Source: an uncultured SAR86 cluster bacterium
Lineage (GTDB): Bacteria > Pseudomonadota > Gammaproteobacteria > Magnimaribacterales > D2472
DNA: 37,777 nucleotides
Assembly: GCA_902518715.1 (NCBI GenBank)
Contig: CABYHU010000003.1
Span: 118,985-156,761 of the forward strand
Reading direction: 5' to 3'
In this document: one piece after another, positions 20,878 to 37,777 of the stretch
How positions within the stretch are numbered: the first letter of the stretch is position 1
Layout: the number at the start of each line of letters is the position of its first letter
Translations under genes and position numbers: made by a program
The notes under the pieces: generated by a model
What the model was told of the DNA's origin: nothing
The model's database searches: none
The model's input: the letters and a program-made list of their open reading frames with translations, nothing else

Positions 20878-22071
20878 ATGAACGACTTAGAAAATTTTAG
20901 AGTTGAAGTCAAAGATTGGCTTGATAAAAATTGCCCCTCAACTATGAGAGCTGGAGCACCTGCTGACACACCTATTGATGAAGTGTGGGGAGGTAGAAAA
21001 GCAGTTTATAAGAATCCTGATTCAAAATTATGGCTCGATAGAATGGGAGAAAAAGGTTGGACTATGCCCACGGTACCAAAAGAATATGGTGGTGGTGGCC
21101 TAAATAAAGAGGAAGTAAAAATACTTAACGAAGAAATGTTTGCTATTGGAGCTCGAGCTCCTCTTCTTAGTTTTGGTATATGGATGCTTGCCCCTGTTTT
21201 ACTTGAGTATGGTAATGAAGCACAAAAAAGAGAACATCTTCCTAAAATAATTAAAGGTGAAATAAGATGGTGTCAGGGGTACTCAGAACCTGGTTCAGGA
21301 TCAGATTTAGCTAGTCTTGCTACTAAAGCAGAAGATATGGGAGACCATTTCTTAGTAAATGGACAGAAAGTTTGGACATCATATGCAGATAAAGCTGATT
21401 GGATCTTTGCTCTTGTCAGAACTGGACCAAAAGAACCAAAACATAACGGGATAAGCTTTTTGCTGATTGATATGGAAAATCCGGGAGTTTCTACTAAACC
21501 TATTACATTGATAAGTGGCAAGTCACCATTTTGTGAAACGTTTTTTGATAACGTTGAAGTTCCAAAAGAGAATCTTGTGGGCGAGCTTAATGCAGGTTGG
21601 ACAATTGCAAAAAAATTGCTACAGCATGAAAGAAAATTTATATCTAACTTTGGACTTGCTGCAGGAATGGGTAGTAAAAAAGATGTTGTTTCATTAGCAA
21701 AAAAACATTTTGGTGAAGATGAAGGAAAAATATCTAATCCAATATTTAGGTCAAAAGTTATAGATCATAAAATGAAAGAACATGCTTTTGGATTAACCCT
21801 TCAAAGAGCTGCAGATGAGGGCGGTAAAGCTTCTGCAGTAGCTTCAATGTTCAAGTACTATGGAACTGAACATAACAAAAGAAGGCATGAGCTAATGGTT
21901 GCAGCCTCTGGAGTTAATGGACTTGCATGGGACGGAAATGAGTTTGATGATAGTGAAAAAAATCTTACAAGGGCATGGTTAAGAACAAAAGGTAATTCTA
22001 TAGAAGGAGGTACCTCAGAAGTGCAACTAAATGTAATTTCTAAAAGAGTACTTGAACTTCCATCTGGATAA
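20878..22071 (+). CDS. Acyl-CoA dehydrogenase, catalytic-type subunit
   Basis: A 397-residue flavoprotein that would introduce a double bond next to a CoA thioester. The FAD/substrate motif WCQGYSEPGSGSDLASL (131-147) and NGQKVWTS (161-168) are clear. Glu251 in LLQHERKF lies where isovaleryl-CoA dehydrogenase has its catalytic base, while the C-terminal loop (IEGGTSEVQ, 375-383) has Gly at the classical catalytic position. This is the pattern of the large subunit in two-gene dehydrogenases such as steroid side-chain or pimeloyl-CoA enzymes. The next gene overlaps by one base and encodes the matching small subunit. The substrate cannot be read from sequence. Confidence 0.88.
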   Translation: MNDLENFRVEVKDWLDKNCPSTMRAGAPADTPIDEVWGGRKAVYKNPDSKLWLDRMGEKGWTMPTVPKEYGGGGLNKEEVKILNEEMFAIGARAPLLSFGIWMLAPVLLEYGNEAQKREHLPKIIKGEIRWCQGYSEPGSGSDLASLATKAEDMGDHFLVNGQKVWTSYADKADWIFALVRTGPKEPKHNGISFLLIDMENPGVSTKPITLISGKSPFCETFFDNVEVPKENLVGELNAGWTIAKKLLQHERKFISNFGLAAGMGSKKDVVSLAKKHFGEDEGKISNPIFRSKVIDHKMKEHAFGLTLQRAADEGGKASAVASMFKYYGTEHNKRRHELMVAASGVNGLAWDGNEFDDSEKNLTRAWLRTKGNSIEGGTSEVQLNVISKRVLELPSG

Positions 22072-23210
22072 TGAAGTTAACCTTAAACGAAGAACAAAAC
22101 TATCTTAAAGAAACAGCGCTTAGTTTTGTATCTGAAAAAACTCCTGTCTCTCATTTAAGGCAGCTACGAGATTCAGATGATCAACTCCGTTGGGATAAGG
22201 ACATATGGAGTGAGATGGTTAAGCTTGGGTGGTCAGGAATTTTGATTCCTGAAGAGTACGGAGGTTCAAACTTCGGATTGACTGGCATGAGTGTAATTCT
22301 CCAAGAATGTGGAAAAACTCTCACACCCTCTCCATTGTTTGCCACAGGAGTTTTAGGGGCAACAGCATTAACAAAATTTGGATCAGAGGAACAAAAACAA
22401 AAGTACTTGTCAAAAATAGCATCTGGTGAACTAACTACTGCTCTGGCAATAGATGAAAATAGTCATCACAATCCAAATATTTGCGAATTAAAAGCAATTA
22501 AAGATGGCTCAAACTATCTTCTTAATGGGAAAAAAATATTTGTTGTAGATGGCGCGAGTGCAGATATTATCATTGTTGTGGCAAGAACTTCTGGTGAAGA
22601 TGATGATGTTGGCGGATTGAGTATGTTTCTAGTTGAATCTGATAGTAGCAACTTAAAGACAGTAAAACTTGATATGGCTGATTCAAGAAACTATGCAAAT
22701 ATTACTTTTGACAATGTATCTGTTGATGAAAAAATGATTTTGGGTGAAATCGATATAGGTCTTGAGCCGATTAATGAGATTTTGGATGTTGGAAGGATTG
22801 CTCTTTCTGCTGAAATGTTAGGCTCATGCGAAAAAGCATTTGAAATAACAATTGAATACCTTAAAGAGAGAAAACAATTTGGTGTTCCAATAGGATCATT
22901 TCAGGCGCTCCAACACAGAGCAGCTGAAATGTTCTGCGAAATTGAATTAACAAAATCAGCTGTTATGGCTGCAATGCAAGGAGCAGAGGAAAATTCAAAT
23001 GATCTCCAAAGGCTTTCAAGTCTTGCAAAATCAATTGTTGGTGAAACTTCTCATCTTGTAAGCAATGAAGCGGTTCAAATGCACGGCGGTATAGGTGTTA
23101 CTGATGAGTACGACATAGGTTTTTATCTTAAAAGAGCAAGGGTTGCCGAGACAATTTTGGGAAATTCGACTTTCCATCAGGAAAGATATGCTAATCTAAC
23201 AGGGTTTTAA
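22071..23210 (+). CDS. Acyl-CoA dehydrogenase, apparently non-catalytic partner subunit
   Basis: A 379-residue acyl-CoA dehydrogenase fold with the LGWSGILIPEEYGG N-terminal motif (52-65) and the flavin-contact motif VQMHGGIGVTDEYDIG (335-350). Both known positions for the catalytic glutamate are altered: the helix position has Gly241 (LDVGRIAL) and the C-terminal loop reads ILGNSTFHQ (362-370). The NGKKIFVVDGASAD region (152-165) is also loose compared with active enzymes. Known heterotetrameric enzymes (for example the mycobacterial ChsE pairs) have one subunit like this. The start shares one base with the upstream stop (TAATG), so a 1:1 product is likely. Confidence 0.85.
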   Translation: MKLTLNEEQNYLKETALSFVSEKTPVSHLRQLRDSDDQLRWDKDIWSEMVKLGWSGILIPEEYGGSNFGLTGMSVILQECGKTLTPSPLFATGVLGATALTKFGSEEQKQKYLSKIASGELTTALAIDENSHHNPNICELKAIKDGSNYLLNGKKIFVVDGASADIIIVVARTSGEDDDVGGLSMFLVESDSSNLKTVKLDMADSRNYANITFDNVSVDEKMILGEIDIGLEPINEILDVGRIALSAEMLGSCEKAFEITIEYLKERKQFGVPIGSFQALQHRAAEMFCEIELTKSAVMAAMQGAEENSNDLQRLSSLAKSIVGETSHLVSNEAVQMHGGIGVTDEYDIGFYLKRARVAETILGNSTFHQERYANLTGF

Positions 23211-23228: not shown

Positions 23229-24113
23229 GTGAGAACAATAAAATCTTTTTTAATTGGAATAATTACATTTATTAATATAGCTATAATCTTATTTATTGGC
23301 TTTGGAACATTAACAGTAATTAACTCTCCAAGAATAATTATAAAATACCGCCCTTTCAAAAGATCTCTTCATAAGTTTTCAAATTTAATTGGGGATCTTA
23401 CCGTTAAATCTTTAGCAATCTCTATTCAATTCCTTCATCAAAAAAAATGGGAGTTCATAATTGAAAATGAAGTATCAATGGATGAATGGTATTTAGCTAC
23501 TTCAAATCACGCATCATGGGGTGATGTCTTCTGTGTTTTAGCAGCAACAAATTTTAAAGCCCCTTTGTTTAAAATATTTATGAAGAAAGATCTTTGGTGG
23601 CTACCGCCAGTATTTCTTGCAAATGTTACTCTTAATATGCCCTTCGTGAATAGACATTCGAAGCAACAATTAAAAAAAAATCCAAATTTAAGAAAACTTG
23701 ATTACCAGAATACTATTGCATCATGCAAAAGATTTGAAAGACAGCCAACAACCATATTTAGCTTTGCTGAGGGCACCAGAAATAATCCAAAAAAACATGC
23801 TGAGCAAAATTCTCCATATAAAAATTTACTTGCGCCAAAGATAGGTGGTATTGCATTAGGTCTATCTGCTGTTCCTAAAATCGATTATCTCTTGGACTTC
23901 ACAATTGTATATAAATCAAAGAAAAGATCATTTTGGGATTTTTGTATTGGTGATCTATCAGATGTAAAGGTTTTTGTGAAAAAGTTAAGGATTCCGGAAA
24001 GTTTAAAAAGAAGAGATTATCTTAATGATCCTTCTTATAGAACTGAGTTTCGGGATTGGCTTGACAATGTTTGGGTTGAAAAAGACAAACTTATAGATTC
24101 AGTTAATTTCTAG
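23229..24113 (+). CDS. PlsC/YihG-type membrane acyltransferase
   Basis: A 294-residue protein with one or two N-terminal membrane helices (about residues 5-35) and a PlsC-type acyltransferase domain. The catalytic motif I is NHASWGD (the HX4D box), motif III is FAEGTRNNPKKH, and the NLLAPKIGGIALGL region follows. The segment around LWWLPPVFLANVTLNMPFVNRHS matches E. coli YihG better than PlsC, so it is probably a lysophospholipid acyltransferase of the YihG kind. It starts with GTG behind a strong ribosome site. It could be part of the same transcript as the two dehydrogenases. Its 3' end overlaps the convergent rraA-like gene by 15 bases. Confidence 0.85.
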   Translation: MRTIKSFLIGIITFINIAIILFIGFGTLTVINSPRIIIKYRPFKRSLHKFSNLIGDLTVKSLAISIQFLHQKKWEFIIENEVSMDEWYLATSNHASWGDVFCVLAATNFKAPLFKIFMKKDLWWLPPVFLANVTLNMPFVNRHSKQQLKKNPNLRKLDYQNTIASCKRFERQPTTIFSFAEGTRNNPKKHAEQNSPYKNLLAPKIGGIALGLSAVPKIDYLLDFTIVYKSKKRSFWDFCIGDLSDVKVFVKKLRIPESLKRRDYLNDPSYRTEFRDWLDNVWVEKDKLIDSVNF

Positions 24114-27776: not shown

Positions 27777-29032
27777 ATAGAACCTTTTCTAGGAACAAAT
27801 TCTAAAACGGTTGCATTTATACAATATCTTGGCAATCCATTTGGGCCATCATCAAAAACATGACCTAGATGAATGTCGGAAGATACAGATCGAATTTCAG
27901 TTCTACGCATGCCGTAACTATTATCAGGTTTTTCATAAACTGAGCCCTCTACTGGTCTTGTAAATGAAAGCCATCCTGATCTTGATACGAATCTATCTCT
28001 AGTATCAAATAGAGGCTCTCCGCTTAGCTTATCTATAAATATGCCATCAGGAGTATTTTTAAAGATTTCATATTCCTTACAAAATCTTGCATCAGTCCCA
28101 TTATTAAATGCAACATCATATGCTTCTGTGTCTCCTAATTTGAATTTTCCAAGCATCAAATAGAAATCTTTTTGATCAATATAGCCTTGATGTGAAAAAA
28201 CCTCTTTACCATCTTCTAAGAAGATTACAGATGGAGTTGCCCAAGTGGGAGCATTAATTTCTAAGTCATGCAATTGATCGGATGTTCTATAAGACATCGG
28301 AATGCTTCCTTTGTATTCATTAGTTACATCAAGTTTTAATTTCTCACAATAGGGGCAATAATTTTGCGAGTCTAGGATCAATATTTGCTTACCGATAAGC
28401 AGATCTTGATTATCTAAAATATCTTTTTCTTTTTCATTGAATACAACACCAGTTGATAAGTCTGGACAATAGCCGTTAGGATTTTTCTTTAAATAATCCT
28501 GATGATAGTTTTCAGCTAAATAAAAGTTGTCTAATGGCTCTATAAAGGTAACTACTCTCCCATAACCCGCTTCAAAAAGAAGAGATTGATACTCATTCAA
28601 AATATCTTGAGCAAGTTTTCTTTGAGTTTCATTCGAGAATAGGATCACTGATCTATACTGAGTTCCAATATCATTTCCTTGTCTATTAAGTTGTGTTGGA
28701 TCATGGGTTTCAAAGAAATGTTTTAGAATTTCATCAAGTGAAATTGCATTGCTGTTAAAGGTTACTTTTACCACCTCTGCAAAATTATTTTCATTATATT
28801 TGTTCTTAAGCTGGATGATAGATCTATAATTTGGATTTACTCCATACCCATTCGCATAACCTGAAACTGCATCAATAACTCCATCAAGGGACTCATATCC
28901 CTTTTCAGCGCCCCAAAAACATCCTGAACCAAGATAAATGGTTTGAATATGATTAGTTTTATTTGCATATACAAAAGAATTTATAAATAGGATAATTGAG
29001 AAAAAAGTAACTAATCTAAGTTTCAGGTTCAT
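27773..29032 (-). CDS. msrAB: Periplasmic MsrA-thioredoxin-MsrB fusion
   Basis: A 419-residue exported methionine sulfoxide reductase. A signal peptide (about 1-23) is followed by MsrA (about 30-190; catalytic Cys38 in GCFWG, resolving Cys189 in NGYCP), a thioredoxin-like domain (about 210-298; CPYC at 226-229 and the cis-Pro TWATPSVIF), and MsrB (about 300-419; catalytic Cys404 in RYCINA). MsrB lacks the zinc-binding CxxC pairs, and the usual recycling-Cys region reads FVSRSGWLSF without cysteine; Cys318 in DARFCKEY is the only other MsrB cysteine. Neisseria PilB has thioredoxin first, so the middle position is unusual. The protein would repair oxidised Met-S and Met-R outside the cytoplasm. 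It overlaps the upstream gst by 17 bases. Confidence 0.9.
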   Translation of the reverse strand: MNLKLRLVTFFSIILFINSFVYANKTNHIQTIYLGSGCFWGAEKGYESLDGVIDAVSGYANGYGVNPNYRSIIQLKNKYNENNFAEVVKVTFNSNAISLDEILKHFFETHDPTQLNRQGNDIGTQYRSVILFSNETQRKLAQDILNEYQSLLFEAGYGRVVTFIEPLDNFYLAENYHQDYLKKNPNGYCPDLSTGVVFNEKEKDILDNQDLLIGKQILILDSQNYCPYCEKLKLDVTNEYKGSIPMSYRTSDQLHDLEINAPTWATPSVIFLEDGKEVFSHQGYIDQKDFYLMLGKFKLGDTEAYDVAFNNGTDARFCKEYEIFKNTPDGIFIDKLSGEPLFDTRDRFVSRSGWLSFTRPVEGSVYEKPDNSYGMRRTEIRSVSSDIHLGHVFDDGPNGLPRYCINATVLEFVPRKGSI

Positions 29033-29639
29033 ATTTAAAGCCTTTGCTTTTTATAAAAGCAGGTCTAGAAAAAAGATTATCTGTCCATCGCTTTATATTT
29101 GGCTTAAATGCTTGCTCTATTCCTAGAGCTTCAGCAAGGTTTATTGCATAACTGACACATATATCAGCCAAGGTAAAACGGTTTGAACACAAATACTCCC
29201 TGTTATCTAGGGTTTTTTCTAAAAGTTTCAACCTTGAAACAAACCATCTGCTATACCCCTCTACTGCAGCGTCAGCAACGCCTGGCTCTTGGAGTTTATA
29301 TCTTAGAACAACAGTTTGTGGAAATGTCAGAGTAGCGTCAGAATGAAATAACCAATTTAAGTAATTTGGATAATCATCCTCGTCTGGCGTAACTTGAAGA
29401 TCGCTTGGACCATATTTTTCTACTAAGTATTGAGAAATTGCAACAGATTCGGTCATTTTTACAGATCCATCAACCATGAATGGAACAGTACCAAGGATGT
29501 TGGTTTCTAGATATTCTTTCATAAAAACTCTTGGTGGAAATGGCATCATTATCAACTCATAATCTAATCCCATTTCTTCTGCTGTCCAAATTGGTCTAAC
29601 TCCTCTTGAATTCTCACAACTATAAATTTTTATTGCCAT
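29016..29639 (-). CDS. Glutathione S-transferase family protein
   Basis: A 207-residue two-domain GST. The N-terminal thioredoxin-fold domain (about 1-80) starts MAIKIYSCENSRGVRPIWTAEEMG (in two parts) and holds the cis-Pro strand GTVPFMVD and the glutathione-binding TESVAISQYL motif. The helical C-terminal domain (about 90-200) carries FTLADICVSYAINLAE, the N-capping box of GSTs. Its substrate is not evident; SRGVRP suggests a serine-type active site. An AAGGA lies about 8 bases before the ATG. It overlaps msrAB by 17 bases, so the two are co-transcribed and may share a stress role. Confidence 0.88.
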   Translation of the reverse strand: MAIKIYSCENSRGVRPIWTAEEMGLDYELIMMPFPPRVFMKEYLETNILGTVPFMVDGSVKMTESVAISQYLVEKYGPSDLQVTPDEDDYPNYLNWLFHSDATLTFPQTVVLRYKLQEPGVADAAVEGYSRWFVSRLKLLEKTLDNREYLCSNRFTLADICVSYAINLAEALGIEQAFKPNIKRWTDNLFSRPAFIKSKGFKYEPET

Positions 29640-29694: not shown

Positions 29695-31353
29695 ATGAAA
29701 AATAAGAATTTAGCCCCCATTTTGAAATCAAACATTGATCAAAACTCCTCACAATTTCAAGAAAATAAAGAGGTAATGCTTAACAAATTGGAATTTCTAG
29801 ATGGCCTTTTAGATCAAGTAGAGCTTGGTGGAGGTAAACATCATCACGAAAGATTGGCAAAAAGAGGTAAAATGCCTGTCAGGGAAAGAGTAATGAAAGT
29901 CCTAGATCCTGATACTCCATTTCTTGAGATTAGTCCTTTTGCAGCATATGGCACTGACTATACAGTTGGTGGTGGTTGCGTTAGCGGAGTTGGAGTTATT
30001 GCAGGTGTTGAGTGTGTAGTATTTGCTAATGATCCATCTGTTAAAGCTGGAGCAATGACAGTTTATGTTGGTGAAAAATGGGCGAGAGCAATTGAGATAG
30101 CAAGAGTTAATCAAATTCCATTCATAAGTTTTGTTGAGTCTGCTGGTGGAGATCTGAGTATGGGAACCGGAAGTAAAAGTGGGCAGGCTCCTATAGCGCC
30201 TACACTTCATACGACTCATTTTGCTGCCACGGGAAGATTCTTTTATGAGATGACCGAGCTGTCAAAATTTCGTATTCCGGTCATTTCTGTTGTTTTTGGG
30301 TCATCTACTGCAGGCGGTGCATATCAACCAGGAATGTCAGACTACAATATTTTTATAAAAGACCAATCAAAAGTATTCCTTGCTGGACCTCCCCTAGTAA
30401 AAATGGCTACTGGAGAAGAGTCTGATGATGAAACTCTTGGAGGTGCAAAAATGCATTCAGAAACCTCCGGCTTATCAGACTATCTTGCTGAGGATGAGAT
30501 GGATGCACTTAGGATTTGTAGAGAGGTTGTTTCACACCTTAATTGGGAGAAGAAAGGTATTGGTCCAATAAAAGAATCTAAAAGTCCTAAATATGATCAA
30601 GATGATCTTCTAGGATTGATAAGCGAGGATTTGAAGTCTCCCGTTGATATAAGAGAGATTATTTCTAGAGTAACCGACGGTTCACAATTTGAGGAATTCA
30701 AGCCTCTTTATGGTCAAACTATGATTTGTGGATGGGCTTGTATTCACGGCTATCAAGTTGGTGTGCTAGGTAATAATGGCCCAATTTATCCAGAATGTGC
30801 TGAAAAGGCAGCTAGCTTCATTCAGTTATGCAATAAAAGAGATATCCCGTTGATCTTTTTACAAAATGTAACAGGTTTCTTGGTAGGTAAGGATTTTGAA
30901 AGGCAGGCAATCATCAAAAAAGGTTCGCAAATGATAAATGCTGTATCAAATTCAACAGTTCCTCATATAACCATAATTGTTGGTGCCTCCTATGGTGCAG
31001 GAACTTATGCGATGTCTGGAAGAGCATATAACAATCGTTTTACTTTTTTGTGGCCGACTGCAAAAATTGCTGTGATGGGTCCAGAGCAAATCGCAGGAGT
31101 AATGTCTATAGTCAGGAAAGCAAAAGCAATGAGGACTGGCGAGAAGTTTGATGAAAAAGCAGATGCAGAAATTGTAAAGATGGTTGAAGACGCTGCAGAG
31201 AGAATGTCACATGCTTTAGTAGCAAGCAGTATGCTAACGGATGATGGAATAATTGATCCAAGAGATACAAGAAAGATAATTGCTTTTTGTTTATCAATTT
31301 GTAACAACACTCCAATAGAGGGCGCCAAAGAGTATGGGGTGTTTAGGTTGTAA
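29695..31353 (+). CDS. Acyl-CoA carboxylase, carboxyltransferase (beta) subunit, AtuC-like
   Basis: A 552-residue biotin-dependent carboxyltransferase of the methylcrotonyl/geranyl-CoA carboxylase type. It has two crotonase-fold halves with oxyanion loops VFGSSTAGGAY (200-210) and GASYGAGTYAM (430-440), plus VGGGCVSGVGVIAGV and QNVTGFLVGKDFE. It transfers CO2 from carboxybiotin to the gamma-methyl of a 3-methyl-2-enoyl-CoA. Residues about 153-185, with a Gly/Ser-rich MGTGSKSGQAPIAPT stretch, differ from the usual MCC/GCC sequence. The neighbouring AtuA-family gene favours a geranyl-CoA-like substrate over 3-methylcrotonyl-CoA, but I cannot decide this from sequence. It overlaps the next gene by one base. 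Confidence 0.85.
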   Translation: MKNKNLAPILKSNIDQNSSQFQENKEVMLNKLEFLDGLLDQVELGGGKHHHERLAKRGKMPVRERVMKVLDPDTPFLEISPFAAYGTDYTVGGGCVSGVGVIAGVECVVFANDPSVKAGAMTVYVGEKWARAIEIARVNQIPFISFVESAGGDLSMGTGSKSGQAPIAPTLHTTHFAATGRFFYEMTELSKFRIPVISVVFGSSTAGGAYQPGMSDYNIFIKDQSKVFLAGPPLVKMATGEESDDETLGGAKMHSETSGLSDYLAEDEMDALRICREVVSHLNWEKKGIGPIKESKSPKYDQDDLLGLISEDLKSPVDIREIISRVTDGSQFEEFKPLYGQTMICGWACIHGYQVGVLGNNGPIYPECAEKAASFIQLCNKRDIPLIFLQNVTGFLVGKDFERQAIIKKGSQMINAVSNSTVPHITIIVGASYGAGTYAMSGRAYNNRFTFLWPTAKIAVMGPEQIAGVMSIVRKAKAMRTGEKFDEKADAEIVKMVEDAAERMSHALVASSMLTDDGIIDPRDTRKIIAFCLSICNNTPIEGAKEYGVFRL

Positions 31354-33275
31354 TGTTTGATTCAATTTTAGTTGCAAATAGAGGAGAAATTGCATTAAGG
31401 ATAATGAGGACTGCTCAAGCAATGGGCATCCAAACTATAGCAATTTATGTTGAAGCAGATAAGGATGCGCCTCATGTTAGGTTTGCTGATAAAGCAGTGC
31501 TTCTTCCAGATGGAGGATATCTTGATATAGATGCAGTTTTAGATGCAGCACAAAAAAGTAATGCTGGCGCTATTCATCCAGGTTATGGTTTCTTATCAGA
31601 AAATTCTGAATTCGCCAAAAGAGTCATTAAAGAAAAGATTGTTTGGGTTGGTCCATCCCCTAAAGTCATTTCTGTAATGGGTGATAAGTTAAAAGCTAAA
31701 GAGCTTGCTATAAAAGCTAGCGTTCCCACTCTTCCAATGACCTCAAATGAGAAAGAAGTCAAAAAAATTGGATATCCACTTCTAATAAAAGCAGCTGCAG
31801 GTGGAGGCGGAAAAGGAATGAGGGTTGTGACTGATAAAAAAGATCTACAAGAGTCGCTTGAAGGTGCGAAAAGAGAGGCTTTATCAGGTTTTGGAGATGA
31901 GAGAGTTTTCATTGAAAGATATGTAGAAAAATCTCGACATATAGAAATCCAAATTCTCGGGGACTCTCACGGCAATATTATTCATCTTGGTGAGAGAGAA
32001 TGCTCAATCCAAAGAAGACATCAAAAAATAATTGAAGAGTCTCCATCTCCGAGGATAACTGAAGAGATAAGATTCGCAATGGGTAATGCAGCAGTTGACC
32101 TTGCAAAAAAAATAAAATACGAGTCTGCAGGAACTGTTGAATTTCTTTTTGATGATAAGAGTGGTGAATTTTGGTTCCTAGAGGTCAATACAAGACTTCA
32201 AGTTGAGCACCCAGTTACGGAAGAAGTTACTGGAATAGATTTAGTAGCTGAACAAATAAAAATTGCCAGAGGTGAAAAGCTACAGTACTCGCAAGAGGAC
32301 ATTGAGTGGACAGGGTCCTCAATTGAGGCTCGTCTGTATGCTGAAAATCCAAATAATGATTTTTTACCTGAAACAGGAAACATGTTTGCTTATGAACAAG
32401 CTGAAAATGATTTTATAACTAGGTGGGATTCTGGTGTTCATAAAGATTCAGTTATTGGTACTAACTTTGATCCAATGCTTGCAAAAGTTATTTCCTACGG
32501 TGAAACAAGGGAGGATGCTGCAAGAGTTTTAGCTAAATCTTTAGAAGATTCTCATATTGGCGGCGTTATTACTAATAAAGATTTTTTAATTGCAACACTA
32601 AGGTCTGATGAGTTTTTAAAAGGAAATACAACAACAGACTTTATAGAGAGAGTTAAACCACCGAGAGTAAAAAACCTTACTAATGATGAGCTTAATCTTG
32701 CACTAACAGCTGCAGCCATGTGGAAACAAATGAGAAATAGAATCTCTTCAGATATTGCACCTTACATCCCATCCGGTTGGACAAATGGAAGACTTCCAAA
32801 TCCTAACATTACATTTCTCCTCGATGGTGAAGAAATATTCGTTGAATATAAGTTGATAAATAAAAATAAATTCCTTGTTTTCAATTCGGAAGTTGAAGTA
32901 GTTGATATTGATGATAAGTATATAGATCTTGTTTTTGATGGTGTAAGAATCAAATCTAGAATTTCTGAGGATGCTGAATTTATATTAGTTCATATCCCAA
33001 GCGGTGATGTATCTTTTGAAGTTAAGCCTAGATTTTCAATGCCGGGTCTTGAGGTGCAAGCTGGTGGATTGATAGCTCCAATGCCGGGCAAAGTAGTCGA
33101 TTTGAAAGTAAAAAAAGGATCAAAGGTAAAATCAGGAGAGACTCTAGTAATTCTAGAGGCTATGAAAATGGAACACTCTATAAAGGCAAGTGAAGATGGA
33201 GTTATTTCTGATATTTTTATCAAGGAAAATGATCAGGTCGAGAATGGTGCCGTTTTGATGGTGGTTGATTCTTAA
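31353..33275 (+). CDS. Acyl-CoA carboxylase, biotin (alpha) subunit, AtuF-like
   Basis: A 640-residue subunit that carboxylates its own biotin. The biotin carboxylase part (about 1-445) has SILVANRGEIALRI, the ATP-grasp glycine loop AAAGGGGKGM (147-156), ECSIQRRHQKIIEESPSP (216-233) and EVNTRLQVEHPVTEEVTG. A middle linker domain (about 460-560) is followed by a biotinyl domain with Lys605 in EAMKMEH. The layout and length fit the alpha subunits of MCC and GCC. Its start shares one base with the carboxyltransferase stop (TAATG), consistent with a fixed subunit ratio. Confidence 0.92.
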   Translation: MFDSILVANRGEIALRIMRTAQAMGIQTIAIYVEADKDAPHVRFADKAVLLPDGGYLDIDAVLDAAQKSNAGAIHPGYGFLSENSEFAKRVIKEKIVWVGPSPKVISVMGDKLKAKELAIKASVPTLPMTSNEKEVKKIGYPLLIKAAAGGGGKGMRVVTDKKDLQESLEGAKREALSGFGDERVFIERYVEKSRHIEIQILGDSHGNIIHLGERECSIQRRHQKIIEESPSPRITEEIRFAMGNAAVDLAKKIKYESAGTVEFLFDDKSGEFWFLEVNTRLQVEHPVTEEVTGIDLVAEQIKIARGEKLQYSQEDIEWTGSSIEARLYAENPNNDFLPETGNMFAYEQAENDFITRWDSGVHKDSVIGTNFDPMLAKVISYGETREDAARVLAKSLEDSHIGGVITNKDFLIATLRSDEFLKGNTTTDFIERVKPPRVKNLTNDELNLALTAAAMWKQMRNRISSDIAPYIPSGWTNGRLPNPNITFLLDGEEIFVEYKLINKNKFLVFNSEVEVVDIDDKYIDLVFDGVRIKSRISEDAEFILVHIPSGDVSFEVKPRFSMPGLEVQAGGLIAPMPGKVVDLKVKKGSKVKSGETLVILEAMKMEHSIKASEDGVISDIFIKENDQVENGAVLMVVDS

Positions 33276-33277
33276 AA

Positions 33278-35059
33278 GTGGGTTCTGAAGTAATAAAAAT
33301 AGCAAATTGCAGTGGTTACTATGGCGACAGATTATCTGCTGCAAAAGAAATGGTTGAAGGAGGTCCGATTGACGTCCTAACTGGTGATTACTTGGCAGAA
33401 CTTACTATGACCATTCTTTTTAACCAAAAGCTGAAAAGAGGAAACGATAAAGGATATGTTGGTACATTCCTTAAACAGCTAAAAGATGTTGCAAAAACTT
33501 GTAAGGAAAAAGAAATAAAGATTGTTACTAATGCTGGAGGCTTAAATCCAAAGTCTATGGCAAATGAAATTGAAATTATTTTAAGTGAATTAGGTTTAGA
33601 GATGCAGGTTGCCTATATCGATGGTGATGATTTAATGCCAAGAATGAGCGATCTTCAAAACGTTGGTGAAGAGTTTATAAATATCGATAAAGAAATCTCT
33701 CTTAAAGATTCTGGCTACACTACATTGACTGCTAATGCTTATCTTGGTGCATGGGGGATAAAAGAGGCTTTAGATAGAGGTGCTGAAATTGTAGTTTGCC
33801 CTCGTGTCACAGATGCAGCAGTCGTAATTGGTCCAGCTGCGTGGAAGTTTAATTGGAAAAGAGATGATTATGATCAACTTGCAGGTGCTCTTGCTGCTGG
33901 CCACATTATTGAATGTGGCTGTCAGGCAACAGGAGGCAATTACGCTTTCTTTGAAGAAGTTCCAAGTTTCGAAAATGTTGGTTTCCCAATTGCTGAAATT
34001 CAATCTGATGGTAGTTTCTTTATAACAAAACATCCAGGTACTGGTGGCTTGGTGTCTACGGGAACTGTGACTGCTCAGCTTTTATATGAGATTAGTTCAC
34101 CTGCTTATATTAATCCTGATGTGGTAGCTCATTTTGATACGTTAAAAATAGAGGATGTTGATAAAGATAGGGTATTTGTTTCAGGCTGCAGAGGTAGCTC
34201 CCCTCCTAATAAGCATAAAGCATGTATTAATCTTGCTGGAGGTTATAGAAATGGTATGGATTTAATCTTAACTGGTCTTGATATTGAAAAAAAAGCTCAA
34301 GCATTTACAGATACTCTCTTTAATCTTGTTGGTGGTAGAGAGCAGTTTGATGAAGTACGAACAGATCTTCACAGAACGGATAAAGAAAATCCAAACTCAA
34401 ATGAAGAGGCAATGGCAACACTTTCTCTTTCAGTAAAATCAAAGGATCCTGATTTGGTAGGCAGACTTTTTAGCGCAAAGATTGTTGAACTTTCTCTTGC
34501 TAACTATCCAGGCTTTTTTGCTCAAGGCGGTGTAAAGGCTAGCGGTCCTGTAATTGTTTATTGGCCTGCATTAGTAGAAAGCAAGTATATTAAAGAAGTG
34601 GTTCACTTTAATGATGAGGTGTTCGAAATTACTCCAACAAGCGAGTTAGGGCTTGATGATATTTACTATCAAAAAGAACCTGTAGATATTCTCCCCTGCC
34701 CTGAGGATGAATTTGAAAAAATAGCTTTTGGAAGAATTTTTGGGACTAGGTCTGGAGACAAAGGCGGATGTGCCAATTTAGGAGTGTGGGCAAAGACTGA
34801 TATGGCTTTTTCTTTTCTAAATTCTTATTTATCCGTTGAAAAGTTAAAAGAGCTTCTTCCAGATTTATCTGAATTCAAAATTGAAAGATATGATCTCCCA
34901 AATATAAAGTCATTAAATTTTTATATTCATGGCATTCTGGAAGATGGAATTTCTTCTAATAATAGAAAAGATGGACAAGCAAAATCACTTGGTGAATACT
35001 TAAGGGCTAAACATATTGAAGTTCCTAAGATACTAAAAAAAGAAAATAAAAATGGATAA
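33278..35059 (+). CDS. AtuA-family protein (DUF1446 plus C-terminal domain)
   Basis: A 593-residue protein of the acyclic terpene utilisation AtuA type. The N-terminus has IANCSGYYGDRLSAA, the family signature, followed by GGPIDVLTGDYLAELTM. A C-terminal domain (about 470-590) carries FGTRSGDKGGCANLGVWA, as in full-length AtuA. In Pseudomonas AtuA is needed for growth on citronellol and geraniol; a lyase role on the carboxylated, hydrated intermediate has been proposed but I would not call it proven. The start is GTG at 33278, three bases after the biotin subunit stop. It overlaps the hydratase gene by 8 bases. Confidence 0.88.
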   Translation: MGSEVIKIANCSGYYGDRLSAAKEMVEGGPIDVLTGDYLAELTMTILFNQKLKRGNDKGYVGTFLKQLKDVAKTCKEKEIKIVTNAGGLNPKSMANEIEIILSELGLEMQVAYIDGDDLMPRMSDLQNVGEEFINIDKEISLKDSGYTTLTANAYLGAWGIKEALDRGAEIVVCPRVTDAAVVIGPAAWKFNWKRDDYDQLAGALAAGHIIECGCQATGGNYAFFEEVPSFENVGFPIAEIQSDGSFFITKHPGTGGLVSTGTVTAQLLYEISSPAYINPDVVAHFDTLKIEDVDKDRVFVSGCRGSSPPNKHKACINLAGGYRNGMDLILTGLDIEKKAQAFTDTLFNLVGGREQFDEVRTDLHRTDKENPNSNEEAMATLSLSVKSKDPDLVGRLFSAKIVELSLANYPGFFAQGGVKASGPVIVYWPALVESKYIKEVVHFNDEVFEITPTSELGLDDIYYQKEPVDILPCPEDEFEKIAFGRIFGTRSGDKGGCANLGVWAKTDMAFSFLNSYLSVEKLKELLPDLSEFKIERYDLPNIKSLNFYIHGILEDGISSNNRKDGQAKSLGEYLRAKHIEVPKILKKENKNG

Positions 35060-35861
35060 TAAGAATTTATCTTTAGAAGGACTAATATTTGAGGCAATTG
35101 AATTGTCGGTTGAAAATAATATCATGAGTATTACTCTGAATAGGCCTGAAAAAAAGAATGCCATTAATCCAGTAATGGCTAATGAAATTATTTACTCATT
35201 GGCATTTGCTGCCCAGGAAAGAGACATAAGAGTTGTAGTAATAAAAGCAAATGGTGATGTTTTTTGTGCAGGTGGTGATCTTGGAACTATGTCGGGCAAA
35301 TCATCTGAGAGCACTTCGAATGTGCCATCACTCGGAGGTGGAACTGAAGAAATAAGCCTTAAAATAAGGAGTTTGAATAAGCCAGTGATTTGTGAAATAC
35401 AGGGCCCTGTTCTTGCTGGCGCTCTTCTTATGGTTACAAATTCAACTCATGCAATTGCTGTTGAAGAAGCTACTTTTTCTGCGCCTGAGATTAAAAGAGG
35501 AATTTGGCCTTTCATGGTCATGGCTGGTCTATTTAGAGTTATGCCTAAAAGACAAGGTCTAGATTTCATTATGAGAGGAAATAAAATTAGTTCTCATGAT
35601 GCAGAAAGATTTGGTCTTGTTAATAAGGTTGTTCATAAAGAGAAGCTAAGTGAAGAAGTGAATAAGATTGCAGCCGAGCTTTCAAAACTAGCTCCAGGAA
35701 CAATGAAATTGGGACTTGAAGCATATAACCATCAAGATAAAATGGATTTTGATGAAGCTGTTCCTTTCCTTAAAGAGCAGCTAGAAAAATGTCTAAAGAG
35801 TGATGATGCAAAAGAAGGTATTACAGCATTTTTAGAAAAAAGAGATCCGGACTGGAAATAA
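35052..35861 (+). CDS. Enoyl-CoA hydratase-family protein, AtuE-like
   Basis: A 269-residue crotonase. The CoA-binding and oxyanion segments are NRPEKKNAINP (30-40), VFCAGGDLGTM (70-80) and GPVLAGALL (118-126). Of the two classical catalytic glutamates, the second is present (Glu146 in APEIKRGIWP) but the first is replaced by a hydrophobic residue (about Leu126). With the carboxylase and AtuA genes around it, it most likely hydrates the glutaconyl-CoA-type product of the carboxylase, as AtuE does. A plain hydratase or isomerase role cannot be excluded. It begins inside the atuA-like gene by 8 bases. Confidence 0.85.
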   Translation: MDNKNLSLEGLIFEAIELSVENNIMSITLNRPEKKNAINPVMANEIIYSLAFAAQERDIRVVVIKANGDVFCAGGDLGTMSGKSSESTSNVPSLGGGTEEISLKIRSLNKPVICEIQGPVLAGALLMVTNSTHAIAVEEATFSAPEIKRGIWPFMVMAGLFRVMPKRQGLDFIMRGNKISSHDAERFGLVNKVVHKEKLSEEVNKIAAELSKLAPGTMKLGLEAYNHQDKMDFDEAVPFLKEQLEKCLKSDDAKEGITAFLEKRDPDWK

Positions 35862-35864
35862 AAA

Positions 35865-36272
35865 ATGAAAGTATTTAATAAATTATCTCCAAATGATGAA
35901 CAACTTAATGGTTTTGTGGAAGGAGACGTAGAGACTCCAATTGCTATGGTAAATCTCCTTAAATTTAAAGAAAAGGCAGAGTATGAGGATGGTAGAGAAA
36001 CTGATTTATCTGGTGCTGAGGCATATGCTATTTATGGAGAAAAAGTTAAAGAATGTCTCAAGAAGGTTGGTGCTGAAATTGTTTTCTCTGGTGTTGTTAG
36101 CAGACTAATGTTGGGAGAAGTTGAGGATATCTGGGACTCTATTGCAATAGCAAGATACCCAAGTAGAAAAGCAATGCTTGAAATGATTATGGATCCCTAT
36201 TACCAAGAGATTGAAAAACACCGATCAGCAGGTCTTGAGGGTCAACTTAATATTGAAACAAAGGACTTATAA
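35865..36272 (+). CDS. DUF1330-family protein
   Basis: A 135-residue soluble protein with the DUF1330 ferredoxin-like fold pattern: PIAMVNLLKFKEKAEYEDG at the N-terminus, AYAIYGEKVKECLKKVGAEIVFSG, and ARYPSRKAMLEMIMDPYYQEIEKHRSAGLEG near the end (each given in short form). Members of this dimeric alpha/beta-barrel group have no established common function; some are suspected to be small isomerases or monooxygenase-like. Its place between an enoyl-CoA hydratase and an acyl-CoA dehydrogenase, with a one-base overlap (TAATG) to the latter, suggests it works on the same pathway. Confidence 0.8.
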   Translation: MKVFNKLSPNDEQLNGFVEGDVETPIAMVNLLKFKEKAEYEDGRETDLSGAEAYAIYGEKVKECLKKVGAEIVFSGVVSRLMLGEVEDIWDSIAIARYPSRKAMLEMIMDPYYQEIEKHRSAGLEGQLNIETKDL

Positions 36273-37498
36273 TGGATTTAAATTATGGCCCACAATATGA
36301 AGATTTTAAAAAAGAGGTCCAATCTTTTTGTAATGAATATAAGGATCTAAAATTTGTCGATAGCTCCCAATCACCTCTTGCATCAGATGGAAAAGGGAAA
36401 CATGGTCCAGAGCTTACAAGAGCTGACTGGCAAAAGTTGCTTATTAAAAGAGGATATTTTGCAAGGTCAGTGCCAAAAGAATATGGTGGATATGGTGGCG
36501 ATCCGGACATTATAAAATCAAGAATAATAGCAACAGAGTTCTCTAAAGCTAAAATTCCCTCAGGAATGGGTGGACAAGGAATTGATATGCTTGTCCCTAC
36601 TCTCCTAGAGCTAGGAACAGAAGAGCAAAAACAAAAATATATAATGCCAACCCTTCATGGAGAGATGATTTGGTGCCAAGGCTACTCTGAGCCCAATGCA
36701 GGAAGTGATCTTGCAAGTCTTCAGACAAAAGGAGAGCTCATTGATAATGAGTGGGTCATAAATGGTCAGAAAATCTGGACTAGTACTGCCCAATATGCCC
36801 AAATGATGTTTTGTCTTGTGAGAACCGAACCTGATGCTCCTAAACATGGCGGTATTAGTTATTTGCTTATTCCAATGGATACACCAGGAATAGAAATAAG
36901 ACCTTTAGTTGATATGACTTTAAAAGCTGGATTTAATGAGGTTTTTTTTACAGATGTAAAAGTTCCAGCAACGAATATTGTTGGAAATAGAGGTGAAGGT
37001 TGGGCTGTTGCAAATGCAACCTTAAGCCATGAGAGAGGTTCTCTTGCTGACCCAAATGCCACAATGAATAGAATCAATATGCTTATTGATCTAATGAAAG
37101 AAGAGTCAATTGATGGGAAGAAACTTATTGATATTCCAGTCTACAGAGATAAACTAATGGCGCTTCAAGGAAAAGTAGTTGCTTTTCAATCTCACAGTCT
37201 TAGAACTCTATCTTCAAAAATTAATCCTGGGCAAGATGTGAAACTGGGAAAGATGATCCAAAAATTAGTTGGGACAGAATTAAGGCATGAACTAGAGGGA
37301 TTTGCTATCGATATCATGGGAGAAATAGGAACATTATATGAACAAAGTCCCCTTTTAAGGGATGGCGGGAGTTGGCAATTCATATACATGTATTTCTTAG
37401 GTCTAATAATTGGCGGCGGAACAAGTCAAATTCAAAAAAATATTATCTCTGAAAGGGGTCTTGGAATGCCCCGTGAACCGAAGGTTAAGGATAATTAA
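36272..37498 (+). CDS. Acyl-CoA dehydrogenase, catalytic-type subunit (second pair)
   Basis: A 408-residue acyl-CoA dehydrogenase resembling the one at 20878-22071. It has VPKEYGGYGGDP (68-78), WCQGYSEPNAGSDLASL (134-150), NGQKIWTS (164-171) and the C-terminal GGGTSQIQKNIISERGLGMP (381-400). Glu254 in LSHERGSL is at the isovaleryl-CoA dehydrogenase catalytic position, while the C-terminal loop has Gly in place of the classical Glu. The next gene, starting one base after the stop, is a small-subunit-like partner. By position it could act like citronellyl-CoA dehydrogenase (AtuD), but the sequence class is the two-subunit one. Confidence 0.88.
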   Translation: MDLNYGPQYEDFKKEVQSFCNEYKDLKFVDSSQSPLASDGKGKHGPELTRADWQKLLIKRGYFARSVPKEYGGYGGDPDIIKSRIIATEFSKAKIPSGMGGQGIDMLVPTLLELGTEEQKQKYIMPTLHGEMIWCQGYSEPNAGSDLASLQTKGELIDNEWVINGQKIWTSTAQYAQMMFCLVRTEPDAPKHGGISYLLIPMDTPGIEIRPLVDMTLKAGFNEVFFTDVKVPATNIVGNRGEGWAVANATLSHERGSLADPNATMNRINMLIDLMKEESIDGKKLIDIPVYRDKLMALQGKVVAFQSHSLRTLSSKINPGQDVKLGKMIQKLVGTELRHELEGFAIDIMGEIGTLYEQSPLLRDGGSWQFIYMYFLGLIIGGGTSQIQKNIISERGLGMPREPKVKDN

Positions 37499-37499
37499 A

Positions 37500-37777
37500 A
37501 TGTATTTTGGACTCTCAGAAGATCAAGAATTTTTTCAAGAAAACATAAAGAAATTCTTAGATGACAACGCATCAGTAGATGTTATAAGGAAGATTACAAC
37601 GGATCATCCTGAGCATCAGAAAGATATTCAAGAAGGTCTTGTTTCCCTTGGTATCAATAGCTTGTTAGTACCTGAAGAATACGGTGGGTTAGGTCTTAAT
37701 ATTCTTTTTGCAACAGCTGTAAGTCAGGCATTAGGGTCAGGAATTGCACCTTCCGCATTTATAGGATCATATGTTAT
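37500..37777 (+). CDS. Acyl-CoA dehydrogenase, partner subunit, N-terminal fragment
   Basis: The first 92 codons of a gene cut by the right edge of the window. The translation begins MYFGLSEDQEFFQENIKKFL and includes LGINSLLVPEEYGGLGLN, the N-terminal helical domain of acyl-CoA dehydrogenases. The start lies one base after the upstream stop. Its N-terminus resembles the partner subunit at 22071-23210 (same LVPEEYGG position), so I expect a second catalytic/non-catalytic pair, but the residues that would show this lie outside the window. Confidence 0.85.
   Translation, partial: MYFGLSEDQEFFQENIKKFLDDNASVDVIRKITTDHPEHQKDIQEGLVSLGINSLLVPEEYGGLGLNILFATAVSQALGSGIAPSAFIGSYV

Follow-up and report, generated by a model that had tools for sequence, protein, structure and literature searches.

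The stretch of DNA considered here (the window) comprises 37,777 nt of contig CABYHU010000003.1 from a member of SAR86, a group of very common ocean bacteria, and all gene coordinates below are window positions. Our subject is an operon of seven genes built around a member of the AtuA family, which occupies the plus strand from position 29695 to the end of the window. Its first gene (CT, 29695-31353) encodes the beta subunit of a biotin-dependent carboxyltransferase (PF01039), followed by the alpha subunit (BC/BCCP, 31353-33275), which joins biotin carboxylase and biotin carrier domains (PF00289, PF02786, PF02785, PF00364). Next lie AtuA with a C-terminal AtuA_ferredoxin domain (33278-35059; PF07287, PF23544), a crotonase-fold enoyl-CoA hydratase (ECH, 35052-35861; PF00378), a DUF1330 protein (35865-36272; PF07045), and the larger subunit (ACD1, 36272-37498) and partner subunit (ACD2, ATG at 37500) of an acyl-CoA dehydrogenase. 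ACD2, assigned by Pfam, is represented by its first 278 bases (37500-37777), because the contig itself ends there (base 156761), a cut made by the assembly; the genome is 1.06 Mb in 24 contigs and 85% complete. CT and BC/BCCP overlap by 1 base, AtuA and ECH by 8, and DUF1330 and ACD1 by 1, while gaps of 2, 3 and 1 bases separate BC/BCCP from AtuA, ECH from DUF1330, and ACD1 from ACD2. The original prediction for this DNA, of seven co-directional genes with overlaps of 1-8 bases or gaps of 1-3 bases, thus agrees with the coordinates and with Pfam, which confirms the domains of the operon proteins; no NCBIfam family exceeded its cut-off for eight window proteins among the matches listed (at most 25 per protein).

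CT belongs to the gamma-carboxylase lineage, aligning from its residue 8 with residue 1 of geranyl-CoA carboxylase (GCC) and residue 22 of 3-methylcrotonyl-CoA carboxylase (MCC; N-terminal extension). E-values were 1.7e-131 against GCC, 5e-143 against MCC, and 2e-67 or weaker against most propionyl-CoA carboxylase chains, with the exception of 9tps_A, which carries that label (5.7e-138). Relatives were collected from all six frames and accepted where an open frame of at least 420 aa gave an alignment of at least 430 columns; from the resulting 116 rows we removed 11 (8 duplicates or near-copies and 3 distant paralogues) and returned two of the paralogues as outgroup, leaving 107. FastTree divided the 105 in-group sequences into GCC (15, support 1.0), MCC (36, support 0.986) and a third type comprising the remaining 54 (support 0.999), which was recovered with an SH-aLRT of 99.9 in a quick search under a mixture model with 66 of the 107 rows. 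On the 66-row tree, approximately unbiased (AU) tests, for groups named after the first tree was seen, rejected a position of the SAR86 CT within MCC (p-AU 1.4e-6) and within GCC (p-AU 6.6e-5). Judged by its sequence, CT is consequently neither a GCC nor an MCC, and belongs to a third, well-supported clade that is also found in other phyla; the divergence proposed in the original prediction is borne out by the very tree, here with AU tests, that it had called for.

The residue at the substrate pocket also sets CT apart. In the sections of Jurado et al. (PMC4673880) drawn on here, Phe191 of MCC blocks a larger substrate that Gly162 of GCC admits, and exchanging these residues shifts substrate preference. 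The comparison of such residues, likewise proposed at the outset, places Thr179 of the window CT (30229-30231, a number counted by hand on the alignment) at this position, and hence neither the Gly of GCC nor the Phe of MCC; other SAR86 rows have Thr or Ser, and the remaining third-type rows Ser, Gly or Ala. The Gly/Ser-rich stretch at residues 153-185 (30151-30249), which had been flagged as divergent, is seen in the alignments to be a variable loop just ahead of this residue. The loop is long in the SAR86 CT and its nearest relatives and missing from five third-type loci that are the first to branch off (L169, L172, L179, L183 and L187). SAR86 CT is without the 3-residue insertion of MCC, and its own longer loop sits elsewhere in the alignment. 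A substrate pocket that combines a small residue (Thr or Ser) with a long loop suggests that CT should accept a bulky chain.

A paired acyl-CoA dehydrogenase had been predicted, and this reading stands. Among structures in the Protein Data Bank (PDB), the best matches of ACD1 are 4x28_A and then 6wy8_B, both ahead of isovaleryl-CoA dehydrogenase; the alignments cover most of its length and the Glu-Arg motif is kept. For ACD2 we used the full copy at another SAR86 locus (L048), which matches 6fah_C first (5.1e-23) and 6wy8_A second (4.5e-22), such that adjacent ACD1 and ACD2 each correspond to one partner chain of 6wy8 (Tcur3481/Tcur3483). The resemblance is a distant one, with E-values of 3e-42 to 4e-47 for ACD1 and 4.5e-22 for ACD2. 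ACD1 is probably the catalytic subunit, to judge from these alignments. We take 4x28 to be FadE26-FadE27, and both 4x28 and 6wy8 are presumably steroid-type enzymes that act on steroid CoA esters. The pair adjoins ECH in all eight of the other loci of the window's family, where full-length ACD2 measures 360-393 aa; at L048 it is followed by a Prc-type protease gene and an exo/endo-phosphatase-family gene, so that ACD2 marks the end of the operon there. At L050 (11793-12140), ECH and ACD1 are separated by a fragment of 115 aa with 63% identity to ACD1, possibly a partial duplication. A further pair of acyl-CoA dehydrogenase genes, for proteins of 397 and 379 aa, lies elsewhere in the window (20878-23210, +); an acyltransferase-like gene (23229-24113) follows it, and L048 is arranged similarly.

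ECH, the predicted hydratase of a 3-substituted glutaconyl-CoA, keeps one of the two Glu positions that we assume to be catalytic in the crotonase fold. Sequences collected from all six frames have Leu and Glu at these positions in SAR86 operons, and Gly and Glu at six canonical atu loci (L193-L195, L200-L202); two types of hydratase occur beside the AtuA clade of SAR86. The observation of a one-glutamate hydratase is therefore correct, yet it is rejected as a distinctive mark of this operon, since all six canonical loci tested share the single Glu.

AtuA scores 529.3 bits against PF07287 (cut-off 22.8) and 54.8 bits against AtuA_ferredoxin (cut-off 27), and its structural model is of high quality (pLDDT 93.7, pTM 0.92). 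Foldseek returned a sole strong full-length match, 9evf_A ('Citramalate lyase - ADP - pyruvate complex', E 5e-20), and comparison by VIA gave a Z of 31.0 over 409 residues (root-mean-square deviation 3.6), the next row having a Z of 9.5; matches below 9evf in the fold search mostly cover residues 321-424 and were not used. A profile search of PDB sequences produced one match (E 1.3e-5), to the same protein, whose names there include 'Citramalate lyase, subunit A' as well as 'AtuA family protein'. Over the aligned stretch, 38 AtuA positions are invariant across 53 rows, and 19 of them are identical in citramalate lyase, including D117, R176, D179, E212, C213, Y270, E271 and K314. Citramalate lyase (9erq, 9evf), itself of the AtuA family, thus shares the fold, and its small chain B also matches the SAR86 protein (Foldseek probability 0.99, E 0.037), whereas it consists of two chains rather than one and, by the title of the structure, acts on a small acid. 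On the strength of this modelled kinship, AtuA is probably the C-C lyase of the pathway. Such a role has been proposed before: the enzymes that PMC4847356 lists as 'characterized or tentatively identified' include AtuA, as a lyase that releases acetate, and a review that draws partly on unpublished results (PMC12016498) attributes to the AtuA-like ThnQ/ThnS the cleavage of a CoA ester bearing a tertiary hydroxyl group. Novel here is its use alongside a third type of carboxylase, in genomes that mostly lack 3-hydroxy-3-methylglutaryl-CoA (HMG-CoA) lyase.

Taking these observations together, we regard it as probable (at roughly 0.7) that the operon is a self-contained Atu-type gamma-carboxylation module, which would strip an activated acyl chain, likely of isoprenoid or sterol origin, of its beta-methyl branch. 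From the gene families and their homologues we infer each reaction, the reaction order and the substrate, as follows. The ACD1-ACD2 pair would oxidise a 3-methylacyl-CoA to the 3-methyl-2-enoyl-CoA, after which CT and BC/BCCP would use ATP and bicarbonate to carboxylate its methyl group (the gamma carbon). ECH would then hydrate the 3-substituted glutaconyl-CoA to a tertiary alcohol, and AtuA would cut the C-C bond beside that alcohol, releasing an acetate unit and a 3-oxoacyl-CoA for thiolysis. Overall, the beta-methyl branch would be removed, such that beta-oxidation could go on. The variant pathway of the original prediction accordingly survives as an Atu-like gamma-carboxylation with a divergent CT and a dehydrogenase pair; the terpenoid or sterol substrate that it named is one that we, too, infer.

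The proposed module resembles the atu operon of Pseudomonas in combining AtuA, gamma-carboxylase subunits, a one-Glu crotonase-type hydratase and an acyl-CoA dehydrogenase (cf. L200, L202). However, the SAR86 CT lies in another clade, the SAR86 AtuA is 30-32% identical to nine proteins of the canonical type, the dehydrogenase is paired rather than single, the hydratase has Leu instead of Gly at the first Glu position, and neither an AtuB/AtuG short-chain dehydrogenase nor a CoA ligase is among the seven genes. The MCC/liu operon shares the gamma-carboxylase lineage and the adjacency of carboxylase and hydratase, but the SAR86 CT is 43% identical to MCC of P. aeruginosa and lacks Phe191, and AtuA stands in the place of HMG-CoA lyase. 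ThnQ/ThnS of anaerobic naphthalene degradation, likened here by description and not by sequence, are AtuA-like and reportedly split a CoA ester that carries a tertiary hydroxyl group (PMC12016498), although their substrate is cyclic and their hosts are anaerobic sulphate reducers.

A bulky beta-methyl acyl-CoA is the substrate suggested by the residue in the pocket, by the loop and by the type of dehydrogenase. A long isoprenoid acyl-CoA (for example from phytol) or a C24-branched sterol side chain is most likely, and our data favour neither over the other. A narrower version of the proposed module would be dedicated to sterol side chains, with the pair acting on the C26-oyl-CoA of C24-methylated sterols and the C28 methyl being carboxylated and cleaved. 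This special case gains from the matches of ACD1 and ACD2 to 4x28 and 6wy8, and from the homologues of fadE26/27, fadE34 and cyp125 reported in the consulted part of a study of SAR86 (PMC11582366); however, the operon persists in other SAR86 families that have no such pair beside it, and we consider this version rather unlikely as a full account.

An altogether different explanation is the ordinary pathway of leucine and isovalerate, in which the carboxylase would act on 3-methylcrotonyl-CoA, ECH would yield HMG-CoA, AtuA would substitute for HMG-CoA lyase, and the pair would oxidise isovaleryl-CoA. In its favour, no second MCC- or GCC-like CT was found in a set of 61 SAR86 genomes (the window's own and 60 relatives), in which further CT hits at an E-value of 1e-20 or better were all at most 33% identical. 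HMG-CoA lyase is likewise mostly missing, exceeding its cut-off in 7 of the 61 genomes, in 6/48 of those with AtuA, and in 2/29 of those with AtuA that are at least 90% complete; eight loci elsewhere do combine AtuA with an MCC-like carboxylase, 6 of the 8 genomes being without HMG-CoA lyase over the cut-off. Against this, CT falls outside MCC in the AU test and is without both Phe191 and the MCC insertion, and ACD1 has its nearest solved relatives in 4x28 and 6wy8, before isovaleryl-CoA dehydrogenase. Furthermore, once PF00676 frames of about 810-970 aa are set aside as 2-oxoglutarate dehydrogenase, matches above 150 bits are confined to three of the 61 genomes (G021, G035 and G037, with 666, 349 and 332 aa), weaker matches of at most 38 bits occurring in many. 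With these enzyme assignments, which are an interpretation, the E1 alpha subunit of branched-chain 2-oxoacid dehydrogenase seems nearly absent, making use of leucine less likely still. Overall, we judge the leucine route to be quite improbable.

Several observations nevertheless weigh against a module cleaving bulky methyl-branched chains by means of AtuA. The SAR86 AtuA is 17% identical to the solved lyase and differs from it at 19 of the 38 invariant positions, and a shared fold is no proof of its reaction. Outside SAR86, 19 of 28 genomes with the same AtuA clade have HMG-CoA lyase over the cut-off, indicating that AtuA is no general replacement for that enzyme. Among 51 loci with a full-length CT, AtuA of this clade is also found next to 4 GCC-type and 8 MCC-like carboxylases, and AtuA alone is thus not informative about the substrate. 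Moreover, the ACD1-ACD2 pair stands beside the operon at none of 11 loci from the three remaining SAR86 families (in locus stretches of up to 20 kb), where the first oxidation would have to come from elsewhere. Finally, some of the genomes compared are incomplete.

Within SAR86, AtuA and a CT of the window's type (63-100% identical) are each present in 48/61 genomes; 47 have both, one has AtuA alone, one CT alone, and 12 have neither. As AtuA is missing from 4/33 genomes that are at least 90% complete, and from 5/8 genomes of one family (f4), the operon, though common in the group, does not extend to all of its members. The form of the operon varies: it also exists without the dehydrogenase pair, and in family f3 (L032, L033, L042) CT-BC and AtuA-ECH are adjacent and lie on opposite strands. 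At three further loci (L129, L132, L135), CT is 67-68% identical to that of the window and AtuA 75-77%, and CT may have been replaced within SAR86 there.

In a broader sense, the AtuA family was found in 56/299 genomes of the phylum and 0/14 control genomes. A class-wide sample gave CT matches at an E-value of 1e-60 in 96/321 genomes, of which only four, all from the SAR86 order, exceed 47% identity, so the third CT type is not common in the class. From a scan of genome contigs with the AtuA alignment we retained the best 80 loci, which constitute a sample; 51 have a full-length CT, comprising 39 of the third type (many from SAR86), 8 MCC-like and 4 GCC-type. According to record titles among these best 80, third-type loci outside SAR86 derive from Gammaproteobacteria, Caulobacteraceae, Dactylosporangium, Amycolatopsis, and metagenome-assembled genomes of Myxococcales, Deltaproteobacteria and Pirellulales. 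The eight loci with an MCC-like CT (L125, L130, L134, L143, L147, L159, L160, L175) are mostly from Desulfobacterota, keep the MCC insertion and have Gly for Phe191, and represent another Atu-like variant. At four loci (L117, L146, L151, L157), a GCC-type carboxylase stands beside an AtuA that belongs to the SAR86-like clade (55-67% identical), and an exchange of carboxylase and AtuA seems to have taken place.

Among 27 hand-chosen AtuA loci outside SAR86, recurrent neighbours comprise ACD1-like genes (9 loci), ACD2-like genes (6), glutathione S-transferases (GST; 8), and a gene whose single tested representative is a TetR-type regulator (6). Adjacent ACD1-ACD2 pairs were found at six loci (L117, L133, L146, L148, L153, L154). 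The ACD1 of these pairs is 33-40% identical to that of the window, a level that does not demonstrate common origin. In the window, a GST-like protein (29016-29639, minus strand; Pfam GST) is encoded divergently from CT, 55 bases away, and is 47-55% identical to the GSTs of the 8 outside loci, which are not always divergent and lie up to 9 kb from AtuA. Within SAR86, GST is present at L038, L040 and L043-L050, and was not found at L032-L037, L039, L041 or L042; it is a recurrent neighbour of AtuA operons.

The original prediction also called for a survey of whether DUF1330 and the dehydrogenase pair recur beside AtuA. Similar pairs do so, at the six loci outside SAR86; DUF1330 does not, and its status as a component of the operon must be abandoned. 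The match to PF07045 is weak though above the cut-off (30.4 bits against 23). Across loci L001-L050, DUF1330 lies within the operon only in the window's genome and at L002-L007. These make up seven of the eight AtuA-positive genomes in the window's genus; the eighth (G006) has the operon without it. A close relative (54-100% identity) exists in 55 of the 61 SAR86 genomes, outside the operon in 48 of the 55; of the remaining six genomes, two show weak matches at best (32-33%) and four show none. These outside copies are mostly distant or on another contig, and lie about 10 kb from AtuA in two genomes of family f4 (G042, G060). In 14 regions around such copies, genes for metallo-beta-lactamase-fold, alpha/beta-hydrolase, NMO and GST proteins recur, although not all in each. 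In other SAR86 genomes (L221-L234), DUF1330 sits in a variable cluster that also holds sulfatase and DUF2855 genes, with two tandem copies at L221. Searched with a profile of the seven operon sequences, the other AtuA loci examined yielded no relative; the profile's matches at L138 (where AtuA is 98% identical to the window's) and L185 are two of the same genomes again (G008, G009). That DUF1330 might be a working part of the pathway could be argued from its joints of 3 bases and 1 base in seven genomes and from its proximity to AtuA in G042 and G060, but the prevalence of relatives outside the operon, the different genes that recur around them, the intact operon of G006 and the lack of such relatives at other AtuA loci make this very improbable, and DUF1330 is probably no part of the pathway.

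A 2024 study of SAR86 isolates (PMC11582366) describes, in the part consulted, beta-oxidation, steroid side chains and phytanoyl-CoA dioxygenase, with homologues of fadE26/27, fadE34, cyp125 and phyH; neither 'terpen' nor 'carboxylase' nor 'geranyl' occurs in its main text, and our literature search found no paper joining SAR86 with geranyl-CoA carboxylase. Some of the fadE-type dehydrogenases reported there may be the pair of the present operon. A wider proposal, to which we assign slightly less than an even chance, is that gamma-carboxylation of phytol and other isoprenoids (or of C24-branched sterols) is an order-wide capacity of SAR86, which would employ a third class of carboxylase and an AtuA lyase instead of HMG-CoA lyase. 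If this is true, part of the 'steroid side-chain dehydrogenase' annotation in SAR86 would have to be re-read. The interest of the operon lies in its host, its carboxylase and its testable lyase: the third carboxylase clade provides enzymology with a test case for the Gly/Phe rule, the link between AtuA and citramalate lyase opens the lyase of the Atu pathway to direct tests, and a route for methyl-branched chains would connect SAR86 to the phytol of chlorophyll, to carotenoids or to sterols.

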